Source: Natronosalvus caseinilyticus
GTDB taxonomy: Archaea > Halobacteriota > Halobacteria > Halobacteriales > Natrialbaceae
Assembly: GCF_017357105.1 (NCBI RefSeq)
Contig: NZ_CP071596.1
Coordinates: 3,720,001 to 3,784,000, forward strand
Direction of reading: 5' to 3'
DNA: 64,000 nt
Shown: in pieces, positions 18,028-55,676 of the stretch
Position numbering within the stretch: the first letter of the stretch is position 1
How the letters are laid out: each line of letters begins with the position of its first letter
The notes under the pieces: model-generated
What the model was told of the DNA's origin: nothing
Databases searched by the model: none
The model's input: the letters and a program-made list of their open reading frames with translations, nothing else
Program-made: the position numbers and the translations under genes

Positions 18028-18196
18028 GGCCGTCGTAGGAGGTCGGGGATCAAAAACGCTCGTTACTCGAGCCGTGGCTGGCGGACACCGGAGTCGCCAG
18101 ACGAACGTGCCGCTGAACGGTTACGGAGTGGCTGAACGGTTCTCGGAGATGCGCAACCGCTCTTCGTGGCGGCTCTCGATGGCGTCTCAGCGAGAC

Positions 18197-18634
18197 CTAA
18201 ATCTCGCCGTCTTCCTCGAGATCGTCGAGGTAGACGTGGGCCTGCTCGAGGATCTCGCGGGGCCCGTCCTGGGTGACCGTGTTGACCGCCTGCTCGTAGT
18301 CACGCCACTGGAGATCCCGGTGCTCTCTCGAGAGCTCCGCACTCGCTTCGAACGACTTTGCGACGAAGAGGTGGACGGTCTTGTGTATCGTCTTCCCGTT
18401 CGCCTCGAAGACGTAGTCGTAGTCCTCGCGGAAGCCGTCGAGTAGTCTGAACTGTTCGATACCTGCCTCTTCCTTGATTTCGCGGATCGCCGTCTGCTGT
18501 AGTTCTTCCTCTCCCTCGACACCGCCCTTCGGAAACTCCCAGTCGCCCGGGCGGCTCTTGAGTAGAAGATACTCGCGCCGGCCCCGCGTGTCGCGGAAGA
18601 GGATCGCGCCTGCGCTCGTAGCTTCGACTGCCAT
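18197..18634 (-). CDS. NUDIX hydrolase, diadenosine tetraphosphatase-like
   Basis: This 145-residue protein has the complete NUDIX box from G37 to I59: G37, E43, then REIKEEAGI at 51-59. The preceding LLLKSRPGDWEFPKGG is typical of bis(5'-nucleosyl)-tetraphosphatases, which split Ap4A-like alarmones. The start MAVEATSAGAILF is common in archaeal members. It is divergent from the S10-like gene with about 110 bp between them, which must hold both promoters. Confidence 0.92.
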   Translation of the reverse strand: MAVEATSAGAILFRDTRGRREYLLLKSRPGDWEFPKGGVEGEEELQQTAIREIKEEAGIEQFRLLDGFREDYDYVFEANGKTIHKTVHLFVAKSFEASAELSREHRDLQWRDYEQAVNTVTQDGPREILEQAHVYLDDLEEDGEI

Positions 18635-22256: not shown

Positions 22257-22413
22257 GACGCACCCACCTGCACCGACGCCCCGTCACTCGAGTCAGCCGT
22301 ATTCTGAGCTCGTGGGTCGTGGCCGAGAGCGCGGCTGGTGGCCGGGAGCGCGGCTCGAACGACGGCGAGAGACGCGCTTTTCAGGGGAGGGCAGGCGCCA
22401 CACCGACGTTCAC
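22257..22413. other. Gap between microprotein gene and structured element
   Basis: About 160 bp of GC-rich sequence without a recognisable reading frame or hairpin. It leads directly into the structured repeat that ends at the geranylgeranyl reductase stop codon. Confidence 0.5.
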
Positions 22414-22548
22414 CGCGAGTGAACGAAGTGAGCGAGCGGGCCGACGACCGACCAACGGGAGGGAGGAGTGTTTTTGGTCCAGCTTTTACCGAGGGACGTC
22501 ACGACGGCTCCGAGCCGTCGTGACAGACCGCAGCGTAAAAGGTGGGTT
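22414..22548. repeat. Structured intergenic element, copy 1
   Basis: About 85 bp (22414-22497) match the copy at 54385-54470 with roughly ten differences, then both carry a hairpin, then matching 3' ends. Here the inner hairpin is a perfect 12-bp stem with a CCG loop (22498-22509 with 22513-22524). Around it, CCAGCTTTTAC (22479-22489) pairs with GTAAAAGGTGG (22535-22545) through one G-G mismatch. The element abuts the stop codon of the minus-strand reductase gene and lies between convergent genes. It could act as a two-way terminator, an mRNA 3' stabiliser or a small mobile repeat. Confidence 0.8.
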
Positions 22549-23955
22549 CTAGTACTTGGGATCCGCACCCGTCGTCTCGTACACCGTCTCCATCAGGTCG
22601 TCGCGCTGGCGCTGCCAGTTCGGGAGCGCGTCGGGTCGCGAGGGATATCCCTCGTACTGCTCGAGCACCTCGTCGGCCCGGCGCTTCGTCCGGTAGAGGT
22701 TCAGGATCGTCCCCCAGTGGCCACGGCTCTTGACCAGCGCCTCGAGCTTGAGTTTCATGCCGATGTCCGTACTCCCCGAGTAGAGCGCCTCGGCGAGCTT
22801 GTCGCCGGGCATCGCCGCGAGCAGGCCCATGAGGTCGTCGACGTCGACGGCCGTCGAGAGGATGTTGTAGACGTCGAGAGCAGCGTAGCGGGCGCCGTAG
22901 TGGTCCATCACGCGCTCGTTGTACGCCCAGAGGGCGTGTTCGCTGACGTCGCCGTCTTCGATCGCCTCGATGGCCTGCTCGCCGGCGTATTTCCCGGCGT
23001 AGGCGGCCCCGGCGATGCCGCCGCCGGTGGTGGGGTTGACGTGGCCGGCGGCGTCGCCCACGGCCATGAAGCCGGGGTGCACCGCGGAGTCGTAGGGTCG
23101 TCGGGTGGGGAGGGCGGCGCCGAGTTTGTCCTCGACGCGGGCGCCGGCGAACTCCGGTCGGTTCCGGAGGTCGCGCTTGAGGTCCTCGACGAGTTTCATC
23201 GGCTGTTCGGTCATCTGGAAACCCAGTCCGGCGTTGATCTCAGTGTCCGTTCGGGGGAAGTACCAGAGGTAGCCCGCGGCGCGCTCGGTCGGCTTGAAGA
23301 CGAGGGCGTCACTCCACTCGACGGGCTCCTCGACGTGGACGATTTCCCGGTAGGCCGAGCAGAACTGTGAGTAGGTGACGTTGGTGTCGAACGTCGAGTC
23401 CGAGAAATCGACCTTGTCCTGCAGGAGCGAGAGCGACCCGGCGCCGTCGATCACGATGTCGGCCTCGTAGGTGTAGGGATCGCCGCGGGACATCGCCCGG
23501 ACGCCCGTAACCCGTCCGTTGTCCGCCTGGATCACGTCCTGGACGACGGTGTCGTAGTGGAACGTCGCGCCCGCATGTTTCGCCCCCTCGATGATCCGGC
23601 GGCCGTACTCCCAGCGGTCGACGACTGCGAGTTCCCCGGGGACCGGAATCTCGAGGACGGTGTCCTCGTGCGGAATCTCGAAGCGACCGTGGGTCACCTC
23701 GGTGTTGGTGAACGCCGGCTCGAGCTGGGACTTGGGGATCGCCTCGGGGAACGCGTCCGCGCCCTTCAGCGCGTCGCCGCAGGCGATGTGCCCGGCTTCT
23801 TTCTCCGATTTTCGCTCGAGGACGATCACCTCGTAGCCCGCCTTCGCGACGGTTGCGGCGGCGTAACACCCTGCCGTGCCGGCGCCGACGACGACCACGT
23901 CCGGCGACTGCTCGCGTTGGCCCGTCGTCGCGGCCGACTGCTCCATGCTGCTCAT
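22549..23955 (-). CDS. Geranylgeranyl reductase family flavoprotein
   Basis: This 468-residue FAD enzyme resembles digeranylgeranylglycerophospholipid reductase, which saturates archaeal lipid chains at the membrane. The N terminus has the dinucleotide fold VVVVGAGTAGCYAAATVAKA and ERKSEKEAGHIACGDALKG. Later come VIDGAGSLSLLQ, RAAGYLWYFPRTDTEINAGL and the second FAD motif FMAVGDAAGHVNPTTGGGIA. The frame stays open far upstream, but MSSMEQSAATTG at 23955 sits just after a promoter-like gap and gives the usual length. The gene is divergent from the ferredoxin gene, which could supply its electrons. Its stop codon abuts structured element copy 1. Confidence 0.93.
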   Translation of the reverse strand: MSSMEQSAATTGQREQSPDVVVVGAGTAGCYAAATVAKAGYEVIVLERKSEKEAGHIACGDALKGADAFPEAIPKSQLEPAFTNTEVTHGRFEIPHEDTVLEIPVPGELAVVDRWEYGRRIIEGAKHAGATFHYDTVVQDVIQADNGRVTGVRAMSRGDPYTYEADIVIDGAGSLSLLQDKVDFSDSTFDTNVTYSQFCSAYREIVHVEEPVEWSDALVFKPTERAAGYLWYFPRTDTEINAGLGFQMTEQPMKLVEDLKRDLRNRPEFAGARVEDKLGAALPTRRPYDSAVHPGFMAVGDAAGHVNPTTGGGIAGAAYAGKYAGEQAIEAIEDGDVSEHALWAYNERVMDHYGARYAALDVYNILSTAVDVDDLMGLLAAMPGDKLAEALYSGSTDIGMKLKLEALVKSRGHWGTILNLYRTKRRADEVLEQYEGYPSRPDALPNWQRQRDDLMETVYETTGADPKY

Positions 23956-36687: not shown

Positions 36688-39600
36688 ATGCACATCAAGG
36701 CGCTCGTCCTGGACAATTTCAAGAGTTTCGGCCGAAAGACGAAGATCCCCTTCTACGAGGACTTCACCGTCGTCACGGGCCCGAACGGCTCCGGCAAGTC
36801 GAACATCATCGACGCCGTCCTCTTCGCACTCGGCCTGGCTCGCACCCGCGGGATCAGGGCCGAGAAACTCACCGACCTGATCTACAACCCGGGCCACGAC
36901 GGCGAAGGAGAGTCGTCCGGCCCGCGCGAAGCGATCGTCGAGGTCATCCTCGACAATAGCGACGAGACGCTGACGCGCTCGCAGGTCGTCAACGCCGCCG
37001 GCAGCGACGACGTCGGCGACTGCGAGGAGATCCGCATCCGTCGTCGGATCAAGCGCACCGAGGACAACTACTACTCCTACTACTATCTCAACGACCGCTC
37101 GGTCAACCTCTCGGACATCCAGGACCTGCTCGCCCAGGCCGGCGTCACCCCCGAGGGCTACAACGTCGTCATGCAGGGCGACGTCACCGAGATCATCAAC
37201 ATGACGCCGTACAACCGGCGCCAGATCATCGACGAAATCGCCGGCGTCGCCGAGTTCGACGCCAAGAAGGAGGACGCCTTCGGCGAACTCGAGATCGTTC
37301 AGGAACGCATCGACGAGGCCGAGTTGCGCATCGGCGAGAAGCGCGACCGCCTCGCCCAGCTCGAGGACGAGCGCCAGACGGCGCTTCGCTACCGCCGACT
37401 CCGCGAGGAAAAAGAGGAGTACGAGGGGTATCTCAAGGCGAGCGAACTCGAGGACAAGCGCGAGGAACTCGCGGGCGTCGAGGAGAAGATCGACGGCCTC
37501 GAGGGCGACCTCGAAGCGCTCCAGCGCGAACTCGACGAGCGCCAGGGGACGGTACTCAGGCTCGAAGAGGACCTCGAGGATCTCAACGCCGAAATCGAGC
37601 GCAAGGGCGAGGACGAGCAGTTGCGGATCAAAAGCGAGATCGAATCCGTCAAGGGCGAAATCTCCCGCCTCGAGGATCGCATCGAGGCGACGACCGAGCG
37701 GATCGAGGAGGCCGAATCCACTCGGCGAGAGGCGTTCGTCCAGATCGACCGCAAACAGGAACAGGTCGCCGACCTCGAAGACGAGATGCGCGAGTACAAA
37801 CTCGAGAAGGCCTCGCTCACGTCCGAAGTGCAGGAACGCGAGAGCGAGGTCGAACGTCTCGAGGCCGAGATCGACGACGTCGACACGGAGTACGACGAGG
37901 TCAAAGCCGACCTCCGGGAGCGAAAGGACGAACTCGAAACGGCGAAGACCGAGAAGAACGACCTCCAGCGCGAGCAGGATCGGCTGCTCGACGAGGCCCG
38001 TCGCCGCTCGAACGAGGTGAGCGAAACCGAGGCCGAGATCGAAGCCCTCCAGGAATCGATCCCCGAAATCGAGACCCAGCGCAAGGATCTCGAGCGCGAA
38101 CTCCAGAAGGCCGAGGCCAACCGCGAGAACATCACGGGCGTCGTCGAGGACCTGCGCGAGGAGAAGCGCGAACTGCAGGCGAAACTCGAGGAGATCGACG
38201 ACGAGTTACAGGCCAAACAGGCCGAGTACGCCGAACTCGAGGCCAACGCGGGCGAGAGCGGCGACTCCTCGTTCGGCCGAGCGGTGACGACGATCCAGAA
38301 CGCGGCTATCGACGGCGTCCACGGCCCCGTCGCCGAGCTGGGCAGCGTGAGCGGCGAGTACGCCGTCGCCTGTGAAACCGCGGCGGGCGGCCGACTGGCG
38401 AACGTGGTCGTCGACGACGACGTGATCGGCCAGCAGTGCATCGAGTACCTCAAGTCGCGCAACGCCGGGCGAGCGACGTTCCTCCCGATCACGAAGATGC
38501 GCTCACGGGGGCTGCCGAACGCGCCCTCGGATCCGGGAGTTGTCGACTTCGCGTACAACCTCGTCGACTTCGACGACCAGTACGCGGGCATCTTCTCGTA
38601 CGTCCTCGGGGACACGCTCGTCGTCGAGGACATCGAGACCGCCCGAGCGTACATGGGCGACTACCGTATGGTCACCCTCGACGGCGACCTCGTCGAGAAG
38701 AGCGGGGCGATGACCGGTGGCTCCCGGAAGGGATCCAGGTACTCGTTCACCAGCGGCGGGAAGGGACAACTCGAGCGCGTCGCGACCCAGATCACCCAGC
38801 TCCAGGACGAGAAACAGTCCGTCCGGAGCGATCTCCGCGGGGTCGAAGAGCGCCTCGACGACGCCCGCGACCGCCAGACCGACGCCGCCGACGAGGTGCG
38901 CTCGATCGAGGCCGAACTCGAGAAGCTAGACGAGAAACGAGCGCGCATCGAGGGCGACGTCGAGGATCTCGAGACGAAACTCGAGGACCTCGAGGACGAG
39001 CGCGAGTCCGTCGACGAGCGAATGACCGAAATCGCCGACGAGATCGAGGCGACCACGGGAGAGATCGACGAGATTCAGGCCGCCATCGACGACCTCGAGA
39101 CCGAACTCGCCGACTCGAAGATCCCCGAACTCACCGCCCAGATCGAGGACCTCGAGGCCGAAATCGACGAGCGAGAAGAGCGGATGGACGCCCTCGACAC
39201 GAAGCTCAACGAACTCGGCCTCGAGAAGCAGTACGCCGAGGACGCCATCGAGGACCTCCACGACGACATCGAGACGGCCCAGAACCGCAAGGCCGAACTC
39301 GAGTCGACCATCGAGGAGTGCGAGGCCGCCATCGAGGACAAACGCGGGGAGCTCGAGGAAAAGCGCGAGGCCGTCGCGGAACTCGAGGACGAGTTAGCCG
39401 AACTCAAAGGCGAACGGTCGGAGGTCAAGGAGGCCGTCTCGGAGGCCCGAACGGCCCGGGACCAGCAACAAGATCGCGTCAACGCCGTCGAGAGCAAACT
39501 CGAGTCCGCCCGCGAGCGCGCCGGCGCACTCGAGTGGGAGATCGACGCCCTCGAGGAGGAAGTCGGCGAGTACGACCCCGAAGACGTCCCCGACCACGAC

Positions 39601-45249: not shown

Positions 45250-46866
45250 ATGCCTCCCGAGGACGATTCCGGCACCGAGCCCCTCGAGGAGACGGCAGGT
45301 ACGGCCGCGAGCGTGACCGCGAACGAGAATGCGAACGCGAACTCGAGTGCGAGCGAGAGCGAGGCGACCGACACCGACTCCCCAGGAACGACCACGACGA
45401 CTGCGACGACCGGTAGCGGCCTCACCGACGGACCGCTTCTCCGACCCATGTTTCGACTCGCGTGGCCACTCATGGTCATCCAGTTACTGCAGGTCGCCTA
45501 CAACATCGGCGACACCTTCTGGCTGGGTGCGCTGTCGCCGGAATCGGTCGGCGCGCTGAGCCTGGCCTTCCCGCTGATCTTCTTCCTGATCTCGATCGGC
45601 GGCGGCTTCACCGCGGCAGGGGCGATCCTCATCGCCCAGCACACGGGCGCCGAGAGCGGCAAAGGCGGATTGATCGCCGGCCAGACGCTCTCGTTCATCT
45701 CGATCGTCGCGATCGTCCTCGGCGTGCTCGGTTATTTCGTGACCGATCCGATGCTCGCACTGCTTCCGGCGGATCCGGAGACGAAGGCCACCGTGATCCC
45801 CCTGGCGGCCGACTACATGCGCATCTTCTTCCTCGGATCGCCGTTCCTGTTCGGCTTCTTCATCTTCACCTCGCTCATGCGCGGCTACGGGAACACGCGG
45901 GCCCCGATGCGCGTGATGGCCGTCAGCGTCGTCGTCAACCTCGTACTCGACCCGCTACTCATCTTCGGCGTCGGGCCGTTTCCCGCCCTCGAGATCGAGG
46001 GAGCGGCCGTCGCGACGGTCTTCTCGCGGGCCGTGGCGACCGCCATCGGCCTCTACGTCCTGTTCGGGACGGACGTCGGCCCGAAGATCGAGGCGAGTCA
46101 CCTCGTCCCACAGCGCGAGTACGTCTCGAAGATCACGCGACTGGGCGTCCCCACGGCGCTCGAGCAGTCGATGAGTTCGCTCGCGATGATCGCGATGACG
46201 GCAATGGTCTCGACATTTCCCGTGGCCGTCGTCGCGGCCTACGGCCTGGGCAACCGACTGATCTCGCTCGCCTTCCTCCCGGCGATGGGGATGGGGCAGG
46301 CGACGGACACGATCGTCGGCCAGAACCTCGGGGCCGGAAAACCCGACCGCGCCGGACGGGCGACCTGGATCGCCTCCGGCGTCGTCGCGTCGATCATGTT
46401 CGCAGCGGGAGTGATCGCGTTCGTCGCCCCGGAACCGATCGTCGGCGTGTTCATGACGTCCGGTGAGGAGGGGGCGGCCGAGACGATCGCCCACGGCAGC
46501 ACGTACCTCAGGATCGCCGCCTCGATGTTCGTCTTCATGGGCGTCCTGCAGGTCCTCCTCGGCGCGTTCCGCGGGGCCGGGAACACCAAGACGGCGCTCG
46601 TCTTCTCGGTCGTCACTCTCTGGATCGCCCGGGTCCCGGTGGCGTACTACCTCATCTTCGTCGCCGGTTGGGGAACGATGGGTATCTGGATCGGCGTCGT
46701 CGCCGGCGACGTCGTCGGCGCGCTCGCTGCCATCGCCTACTTCACCCGCGGCACCTGGAAGGGATCGATCGTCGATGACGAGGGCGAAGGAGAGGGCGAG
46801 GGCGAGAGCAAGGACGAACCCAAACAAGCGAGGCCAGAACCGGCGAGTACGTCCTCAAGCGACTGA
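45250..46866 (+). CDS. MATE-family efflux transporter
   Basis: This 538-residue protein has an acidic N-terminal tail of about 55 residues, then two six-helix MatE halves. The first starts near MFRLAWPLMVIQLLQVAYNI and GDTFWLGALSPESVGALSLA. The second starts near ITRLGVPTALEQSMSSLAMI, with the loop FLPAMGMGQATDTIVGQNLG. It exports cationic drugs or metabolites in exchange for Na+ or H+. Acidic tails on both ends are typical of halophiles. It is transcribed alone. Confidence 0.92.
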   Translation: MPPEDDSGTEPLEETAGTAASVTANENANANSSASESEATDTDSPGTTTTTATTGSGLTDGPLLRPMFRLAWPLMVIQLLQVAYNIGDTFWLGALSPESVGALSLAFPLIFFLISIGGGFTAAGAILIAQHTGAESGKGGLIAGQTLSFISIVAIVLGVLGYFVTDPMLALLPADPETKATVIPLAADYMRIFFLGSPFLFGFFIFTSLMRGYGNTRAPMRVMAVSVVVNLVLDPLLIFGVGPFPALEIEGAAVATVFSRAVATAIGLYVLFGTDVGPKIEASHLVPQREYVSKITRLGVPTALEQSMSSLAMIAMTAMVSTFPVAVVAAYGLGNRLISLAFLPAMGMGQATDTIVGQNLGAGKPDRAGRATWIASGVVASIMFAAGVIAFVAPEPIVGVFMTSGEEGAAETIAHGSTYLRIAASMFVFMGVLQVLLGAFRGAGNTKTALVFSVVTLWIARVPVAYYLIFVAGWGTMGIWIGVVAGDVVGALAAIAYFTRGTWKGSIVDDEGEGEGEGESKDEPKQARPEPASTSSSD

Positions 46867-54350: not shown

Positions 54351-54384
54351 TTCCATCCAGCAGTTAGTCTCACCTCGATCCTAC

Positions 54385-54527
54385 CGCGAGCGAACGCGGT
54401 GAGCGAGCGGGCCGACGACTGACCCGTAGGGGAGGGAGGAGTGCTTTTGGTCCAGCTTTTGCCGAGGGACGCCGCGCTGTGTGGCGAAGCCACCAGCGCG
54501 GCAGACCGCAGTGCAAAAGGTGGGTTT
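54385..54527. repeat. Structured intergenic element, copy 2
   Basis: This is the second copy of the element at 22414-22548. The outer stem is CCAGCTTTTGC (54452-54462) with GCAAAAGGTGG, the same G-G mismatch, and one base pair changed from A-T to G-C compared with copy 1. The inner hairpin is different in sequence: GCCGCGCTG (54471-54479) with CAGCGCGGC (54494-54502), plus an inner GTGGC-GAA-GCCAC. The right end abuts the stop codon of the AI-2E-like gene, as copy 1 does for the reductase gene. Paired substitution argues for selection on folding. Confidence 0.8.
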
Positions 54528-55676
54528 TCAATCCGTCTCGCCCGCCGGCTCCTCGCCAGCGGCAGTCGCGGCCGACATCTCGAGCGTTGTCGGGCCCTGG
54601 GTGGGTTCCTCCGCGAGCGTGGGTCGCGGCTCGAGGTTGCCGTAGGCCTCGCCGAAAACGTTGAGGCCGGCCTTGAACACCGCGAGGAGGACCGGGCCGA
54701 GGAACAGGCCCATGATCCCGAGGAGGTAGAGTCCCCCAATGACGCCGACGAGGACGACCGCGGGGTGGACGCCCGACTGGCGATCGACGAAGATGGCGCG
54801 CAGGTAGTTGTCGACAACCGAGAGGACCGCGGCACCGTAGGCGAGCAGGAGGAGACCGGCGCCGGTCTCGCCGCTGGCGAGGAGGTAGCCGGCGGCCGGA
54901 CCCCAGACGAGCCAGACGCCGATGGCCGGCAGGAAGGCGGCGACGATCATGACCAGCGTCCAGAAGGCGACGTTGGAGATGCCGGCGACCCAGAGACCGA
55001 GGCCGCCGAGGGCGCCCTGGACGAGCGCGACCAGGACGTGACTGCGGATGACCGCCCAGGTGACGACCCGAATTTCCTCGAACAGTTCGTCCTGAACGAC
55101 GGGGTCGAGGGGGGCGATGGCGCCGACCCAGTGAACGAACCGATCGCCGTCGACCAGGAAGTAATAGAGCAGGAATACGAGGACGATCAGTCCGATGCTC
55201 ATCTCCATTCCCGAGTTGAGCAGGCGAACGGATTCGTCCAGCAGGAGGTTGATGACGCGGGTGAGGACGTCGGTTTCGACGCCGGTGAGCGCCTGTTCCT
55301 CGAGGGCGGCGACCGTCTGCGGGTCGAGACCGAGATCTTCGGCCGTCGTTCGGACCCCCTCGAGCAGGTTGCGGCCGTCCAGGTCGCGGAGAAACGAGAA
55401 CACGGTCTGAAAGAGAATCACCGAGAAAATCACCAGCGGCACGACGGCGGTGACGACGGCGACGACGGTCAACGCCAGGGCGACGAGTTTCGTCCCGTAG
55501 CGATTCCCGAGCCACGTCGGCTCGAGTCGAGTCTCGAGGCGCCGCTGGAGGGGATAGAGGACGAACGCGAGCAGACAGGCAGCCATCACGTACGGAAAGA
55601 GGGGGAGAACCATTAGCGCGGCTATGTAGCCGAGGATCAACAGCGAGAGTACGAAGAACCCGGCTCGAATATCCAT
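54528..55676 (-). CDS. AI-2E family permease
   Basis: This protein of about 382 residues has seven to eight membrane helices of the AI-2E/PerM type. The first helices are FFVLSLLILGYIAALMVLPL and FPYVMAACLLAFVLYPLQRR. A soluble coil follows (about 100-160) with LDPQTVAALEEQALTGVE, then VQGALGGLGLWVAGISNVAF and the typical IGVWLVWGPAAGYLLASGE. Members export signals or Na+; here function is not known. The acidic C-terminal tail is short. The start MDIRAGFFVL at 55676 follows a small upstream open frame. Confidence 0.88.
   Translation of the reverse strand: MDIRAGFFVLSLLILGYIAALMVLPLFPYVMAACLLAFVLYPLQRRLETRLEPTWLGNRYGTKLVALALTVVAVVTAVVPLVIFSVILFQTVFSFLRDLDGRNLLEGVRTTAEDLGLDPQTVAALEEQALTGVETDVLTRVINLLLDESVRLLNSGMEMSIGLIVLVFLLYYFLVDGDRFVHWVGAIAPLDPVVQDELFEEIRVVTWAVIRSHVLVALVQGALGGLGLWVAGISNVAFWTLVMIVAAFLPAIGVWLVWGPAAGYLLASGETGAGLLLLAYGAAVLSVVDNYLRAIFVDRQSGVHPAVVLVGVIGGLYLLGIMGLFLGPVLLAVFKAGLNVFGEAYGNLEPRPTLAEEPTQGPTTLEMSAATAAGEEPAGETD

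Follow-up and report, generated by a model that had tools for sequence, protein, structure and literature searches.

The 64,000-nucleotide stretch of the Natronosalvus caseinilyticus genome that we analyzed (the window) holds two copies of a structured element, each in a gap between convergent genes according to our own gene calls. We built an alignment from 19 relatives (A1) and derived a covariance model (R1) from it. A search of the window with R1 placed the core of copy A at 22413-22545 (+ strand, 140.2 bits) and that of copy B at 54384-54523 (+ strand, 157.1 bits), so the recurrence that an earlier note had described from the letters of this DNA is real. Copy A lies against the 3' end of a 468-aa minus-strand gene (22549-23955), which we take to encode a geranylgeranyl-reductase-like flavoprotein, and copy B against that of a 382-aa minus-strand gene (54528-55676), presumably for an AI-2E-family-like membrane protein. 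The earlier note was right that both copies abut these genes but had them ending exactly at the stop codons; the core of copy A ends 3 nt short of the stop (complement CTA, 22549-22551) and that of copy B 4 nt short (complement TCA, 54528-54530). We rejected the idea that the element supplies the stop codon, since orthologues without it terminate in the same residues. Three weak R1 matches in the window, at 18175-18260 (-), 38994-39052 (+) and 45657-45760 (-), had E-values of 0.0008-0.01 and may be degenerate relatives or chance.

Anatomy of the element

Members of the family are about 135-200 bp long and read, on the + strand, P1, GCCGACGA, P2, GAGGAGTG, a T4/T5 tract, most often 8 nt, a second T4/T5 tract, and P3. 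P1 has the form CCGC-GA-hairpin-GA-GCGG (22413-22439 in copy A, from A1 and pair counts; 54384-54410 in copy B, from A1). P2 is NN-GA-hairpin-GA-NN, with outer pairs that covary among CC/GG, CT/AG, AC/GT and GT/AC; it is CC-GA-CC..GG-GA-GG in copy A (22448-22462, pair counts) and CTGACCC..GGGGAGG in copy B (54419-54435, A1). The conserved linker and first T tract, T1, again delimited from A1, occupy 22463-22475 in copy A (GAGGAGTG, with T1 at 22471-22475) and 54436-54448 in copy B (GAGGAGTGC, with T1 at 54445-54448). The second tract, T2, falls within the 5' arm of P3, at 22484-22487 in copy A (A1) and 54457-54460 in copy B.

By pair counts, P3 spans 22479-22545 in copy A and 54452-54523 in copy B. 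Its 3' arm bears an A4 or A5 tract matching the T tract (22537-22540 and 54515-54518, respectively), and it contains a conserved mismatch (usually G-G in the family of the window), a CGA/GCAG internal loop, a second loop with GA on each side, and an upper stem that often has a single bulged T. The apical stem is free, hypervariable sequence. Tandem G-A steps recur in all three hairpins. We confirmed the earlier description of the outer stem, CTTTTAC/GTAAAAG in one copy and CTTTTGC/GCAAAAG in the other with an identical G-G mismatch, and of inner hairpins that are unrelated in sequence and still paired.

An optional upstream module, GGGG(A/G)AGGGCAGGC, which is the one found in the window's family, extends six copies of this genome. 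A module of this GGGGAGGGCAGGC type is present at copy A (approximately 22382-22398, +) and absent from copy B. In a second family, f12, the upstream module is an AGCATYCGCG hairpin with an RTTCAC end. The f12 copies suggested a closing helix between the upstream AGCAT and a linker GTGCT, but this pairing is lost in variants and in copies of the window's family, and we discarded it. Agreement in length between T1 and the A4 tract, which hinted at alternative pairing or a U-A-U triple helix, was found mainly within one family.

Several other motifs accompany the element. A module GTTCGA-[hairpin]-TCGTGATCACGA-[hairpin]-TCGAACGACA recurs in the P3 3' arm of several genomes (loci L021, L030, L164:3895-4128, L267 and L274), as if this two-hairpin sequence were a smaller unit nested in the element. 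Upstream of many f12 copies (L126, L128, L129, L132, L138, L142, L148 and L150) there is a dispersed motif, GTCACGCGC.GGGTTGGTCCCG..CTACTTGAACCTACGCAG, which could be a promoter or another module. A repeated flank, GTACGCCCGGAACACTAACG, directly follows the element in several genera (L017, L114-L117). At L217, the orthologue of copy B in relative G007, the stop-codon border AAAAGGTGGGTTTC is shared and the core differs, containing GCGGCCTTTTTTTGGGTC, which suggests that further subtypes escape R1.

Conservation of the fold

In A1, 95.5% of cells were paired, compared with 80.3% in shuffled alignments. Both sides had changed in 25 of 38 pairs (14.3 in shuffles), and the number of cells changed on both sides was 104, where shuffles gave 28.8 ± 4.2 and slid controls 6-15; these pair counts, like the G-U comparison below, come from copies that share ancestry and are not independent. 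The claim that constraint acts on the fold, not the sequence, therefore held up, and the further copies with stem-preserving changes that the earlier note had asked for in relatives were found. The four U-A pairs between the U4 and A4 tracts at the base of P3 were invariant in A1. Because most other P3 pairs vary, the tracts are constrained in sequence as well as in pairing.

At positions of P3 flanked by Watson-Crick pairs, symmetric scoring gave 23 G-U against 9 A-C when the + strand was read. This excess favors an RNA of the + strand, although it is modest and the copies are related. Since, in addition, almost all of some 2,300 pairs are plain Watson-Crick, a process at the DNA level that keeps palindromes perfect is a possible alternative.

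Distribution

The 4.24-Mb genome contains nine strong R1 copies (on C1 at 226515+, 502423-, 523269-, 598457+, 2973190+, 3603624-, 3742413+, 3774384+ and 3848288+), and these are 70-85% identical to copy A. R1 matched 250 of 292 Halobacteria genomes, with hosts including Natrinema, Halobacterium, Halomarina, Haloprofundus and Halogranum, and 0 to 48 copies per genome, the maximum coming from a subset that was searched more deeply; some haloarchaea had no copy detected by R1. In a sample of the phylum, matches outside the order occurred in only three genomes, near E=1e-5; R1 E-values are rough, and gathering copies by score under-samples weak and divergent ones. A pattern search matched 21 of 61 genomes and its reversed control none; taken with the nine strong copies and the covariation, this speaks against a chance recurrence. 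No phage record matched, and nine haloarchaeal plasmids did. Rfam gave no match at gathering score in the window and none up to E=1 for either copy, in keeping with the earlier note, which knew of no named class for the element, and we found no description of it in the openly licensed literature. Judged from sequence, the element is best regarded as a dispersed, non-coding, structure-encoding family found Halobacteria-wide.

Position relative to genes

Gene context was determined with a codon-usage-trained gene caller for 72 copies in six genomes of five families. The next downstream gene was antisense in 57 copies, and in 52 of those 57 the end of P3 lay -2 to +5 nt from the 3' end of that gene; two of these 52 genes are tRNA genes. 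The genes are our own calls. Copies are thus clearly not indifferent to gene ends, whereas a spread without regard to them is what the earlier note had named in advance as speaking against it. An SRP RNA gene also neighbors the element, within about 10 nt, in this genome and in G004.

Upstream of the 57 antisense-abutting copies, the gene was convergent in 35 and in tandem in 22, which rules out an arrangement confined to convergent pairs. Convergent gaps accounted for 67 of 105 loci (64%), compared with 71 of 138 other gene ends whose gaps measure 150 bp or more (51%; Fisher p = 0.067). Because convergence is only mildly enriched, the convergent location noted before is correct for both window copies but does not extend to the family: the placement rule is antisense at a gene end, and convergence is not required.

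Some convergent gaps hold back-to-back copies, one for each gene (L133, L155, L163 and L165). We also observed an inverted pair between nusA-like and ribosomal protein S12-like genes (L135:1723-1834 and 1958-2083; L147:1985-2117 and 2241-2371); in the pair of G130, one element lies in the sense direction immediately ahead of the S12 start codon.

Strand asymmetry of the U tracts

Of 181 aligned copies, 166 have two U4 tracts 6-20 nt apart on the strand of the element, and 2 have such a pair on the opposite strand; the 181 include some copies counted in both alignments, and the frequency is biased somewhat upwards because R1 was built from sequences bearing T tracts. The 150-nt flanks of other genes had two U4 tracts in 6 of 338 cases in sense and 1 of 338 in antisense. 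The earlier suggestion of a two-way 3'-end signal is therefore kept in part: the double tracts are evidence for a 3'-end signal, but a symmetric, two-way terminator was dropped, since the double site occurs on just one of the strands.

With its paired tracts of at least four U, the + strand has what marks an archaeal U-tract terminator. In Methanococcus maripaludis, aCPSF1 is reported to need no fewer than two U4 tracts to bind efficiently, and the terminators of highest efficiency are those with two tracts (PMC8716108). Intergenic termination sites of H. volcanii bear T stretches (PMC7237163). A bacterial-type intrinsic terminator, a GC hairpin followed by a T run, does not describe the element: on both strands the T run precedes or sits within the 5' arm of P3, and an A run closes P3.

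Retention at gene ends and replacement of hairpins

When three congeners were compared, eight of the nine copies in this genome had an equivalent at the corresponding gene end in one or more of them. The flanking gene DNA is about 93-96% identical to that of the nearest congeners in most comparisons, and the apical hairpin of P3 is often wholly different; at both genes abutted in the window, the reductase and the membrane protein, it has been replaced between congeners. Identical hairpins occur at two sites of this genome, at the gene ends ...MLGKGF and ...EEDDHLF, suggesting that copies exchange them. In other families, several of the host genes again have the element, and the reductase gene has it in 11 of 30 loci, from several genera plus a further family. 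A candidate empty site for copy A in G007, a 97%-identical relative, turned out to be a rearranged gap and not an empty one.

Dispersal

Direct repeats flank 7 of 164 copies, compared with 2 of 800 control positions (BLAST E<1e-10). They are 30, 61-69, 66, 79 and 110 bp long, and it is the end of P3 that forms the new junction. In three members of one genus (G147, G215 and G264), the element follows a SufS-like gene and is itself followed by a copy of that gene's own end. In six relatives, among them G214 (98% identical), the gene is joined directly to the downstream sequence without the element, and G263 retains a remnant of it; loss by recombination between the repeats could be another route to these empty sites. 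The second repeat extends 7-22 nt into the element in G215 and at G000:523269. Simple target-site duplication was accordingly rejected as the origin of all flanking repeats, and slippage or tandem duplication is a possible alternative to insertion.

In four genera (L023, L026, L027 and L265), the element is followed by a 61-69 bp copy of the 3'-terminal bases of an aminotransferase-like gene of 370 aa. Each such copy resembles the gene of its own genome, and the differences, in pairs read by eye, are mostly synonymous.

Plasmid copies in Natronorubrum, Haloterrigena, Halomontanus and Natrinema (NZ_CP031307.1:24565, NZ_CP084319.1:248732, NZ_CP119800.1:267472 and NZ_CP084473.1:310602) share extended edges, AGTACAGGCGGAGAAGTGT...GGTTCGCA..TGTAG, in unrelated gene contexts; the closest members are 88-94% identical over about 150 nt. 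There is mostly one such copy per megaplasmid, and unlike chromosomal copies they abut no annotated gene ends. Because some copies are repeat-flanked and this plasmid subfamily sits in unrelated contexts, the element appears also to spread, and the earlier guess of a mobile structured repeat has gained evidence.

Discussion

We propose, with about an even chance of being correct, that the element is a strand-specific transcription terminator or insulator, placed in antisense at the 3' end of a gene, here called X, where it would block antisense transcription into X. Opposing transcripts would come from read-through of a convergent gene or from an antisense start in the next promoter. In such a transcript, two U4 tracts spaced by about 8 nt would become exposed beyond the structured P1 and P2; the termination ribonuclease aCPSF1/FttA would bind and cleave there with RNA polymerase still inside P3, and the polymerase would thereby be kept out of X. 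The single U4 tract on the other strand, in P3 about 5-10 nt past the stop of X, could end the X mRNA. Fold conservation, placement, the strand asymmetry of the U4 tracts, vertical retention, hairpin replacement and dispersal events are what the sequences show; that the element is transcribed and terminates transcription, by which factor it does so, and what X gains from it are inferred.

A terminator would explain the strand asymmetry, the antisense orientation, the use of coding, tRNA and SRP RNA genes, and the paired copies in some convergent gaps. The covariation, the invariant U4/A4 pairs, the G-U excess and the retention of orthologous sites also count in its favor. It fits less well with the very tight spacing, since a position within 5 nt of a gene end is not needed for termination, and with the location of T2, which belongs to the P3 stem and would become inaccessible when P3 forms. 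For the 22 of 57 antisense-abutting copies in tandem gaps, a source of opposing transcription must be assumed, and that some haloarchaea have no detectable copy also weighs against it.

The element resembles the aCPSF1/FttA U-tract terminators in that one strand bears, near a gene end, a close pair of tracts with four or more U each (PMC8716108, PMC7515710, PMC11616081). Those terminators are usually described without a strict need for an upstream hairpin; the element adds a multi-hairpin fold, antisense placement and dispersal. It is also like the termination sites of H. volcanii, a haloarchaeon in which hairpins are described near T-stretch sites, although the available text of that report describes no dispersed family with a shared conserved fold (PMC7237163).

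A broader and more tentative proposal, plausible but short of probable, is that these are a class-wide archaeal family of mobile RNA-structured transcription insulators: portable strand-specific terminators guarding gene 3' ends against antisense transcription, which would swap hairpins between sites and spread by joining their 3' terminus to gene-end DNA with long duplications.

The element could instead be a selfish, transposase-free mobile repeat of the REP/BIME or PATE kind, merely tolerated at gene ends, with any effect on transcription incidental and its conserved features serving as recognition signals for a mobilizing enzyme on the folded single strand. We consider this unlikely but a serious competitor. 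The excess of flanking direct repeats with a new junction at the P3 end, the genus with occupied and empty sites plus a remnant, the plasmid subfamily with its shared edges and unrelated neighbors, the range of 0 to 48 copies, and the hairpins common to different sites of one genome are all what it would predict. However, from one congener to another the positions are kept and the hairpins change, and the same gene ends are occupied in different families. No terminal inverted repeats were seen on inspection, no transposase was noticed next to the copies inspected, and PATEs are described as lacking target duplications (PMC3119063). Nor would mobility by itself explain an antisense orientation within 5 nt of a stop codon.

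REP and BIME sequences of bacteria are short, non-coding, imperfect palindromes dispersed between genes at 3' ends, sometimes as inverted pairs; their single-strand hairpin, with a terminal tetranucleotide, is recognized by a TnpA-REP transposase of the genome. The element is likewise a dispersed palindrome linked to 3' ends that can occur in back-to-back pairs, but it is larger, multi-hairpin and archaeal, with hypervariable apical stems and U4 tracts. Haloarchaea have transposase-free repeats of their own, namely PATEs, MITEs and SMRs; PATEs have palindromes near their ends but no terminal inverted repeats, with IS605-type transposon-like ends and no target duplication, and homogeneous PATEs are over 90% identical (PMC3119063). 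By inspection the element, like a PATE, has no inverted terminal repeats, and it has hairpins throughout; its left end, CCGCGAG, does not match the reverse complement of its right end, CCACCTTTT. By the same comparison it is not a MITE, which would carry terminal inverted repeats matching a transposon. Unlike PATEs, the copies of this genome are only 70-85% identical to copy A and lie at gene ends, and some have long direct repeats (30-110 bp at several copies), for which target duplication is one possible origin. The element would thus act like an archaeal U-tract terminator and spread somewhat like REP/BIME or PATE, and we place it in neither repeat class because the rule of no target duplication in PATEs may be broken and any link to the enzymes that define these classes is hypothetical.

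A role as a 3' UTR element that stabilizes the mRNA of X is improbable; in this reading the reverse complement of P3 would form a hairpin after the stop and shield that mRNA from 3' exonucleases. On either strand P3 pairs almost perfectly, and it starts a few nucleotides from the end of X, as such a hairpin would, but both the preference for G-U over A-C and the tandem G-A motifs indicate the opposite strand. At tRNA genes, a hairpin 0-2 nt past the end should interfere with 3' processing, and one so close to a stop codon would fall within the footprint of the terminating ribosome. It is very improbable that the copies form an independent family of small non-coding RNAs, transcribed from a promoter of their own and acting either in trans or as antisense to the X end: the conserved multi-hairpin architecture, the near-invariant linkers and the conserved motif ending in CTACTTGAACCTACGCAG ahead of some f12 copies would suit it, but no general promoter-like sequence was seen upstream, gap lengths and upstream sequence are variable, and the modeled RNA would have no overlap with X.

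How opposing transcripts are kept out of genes in compact archaeal genomes is a largely open question. This family comprises hundreds of natural sites that can be aligned and for which both the strand and the factor are predicted, which makes the question of antisense exclusion directly testable. Its evolution is striking in that flanks 93-96% identical between species adjoin an apical hairpin that has been fully replaced and is still paired. If both mobility and termination prove true, the element would be a portable archaeal insulator, comparable to the REP/BIME sequences of bacteria.
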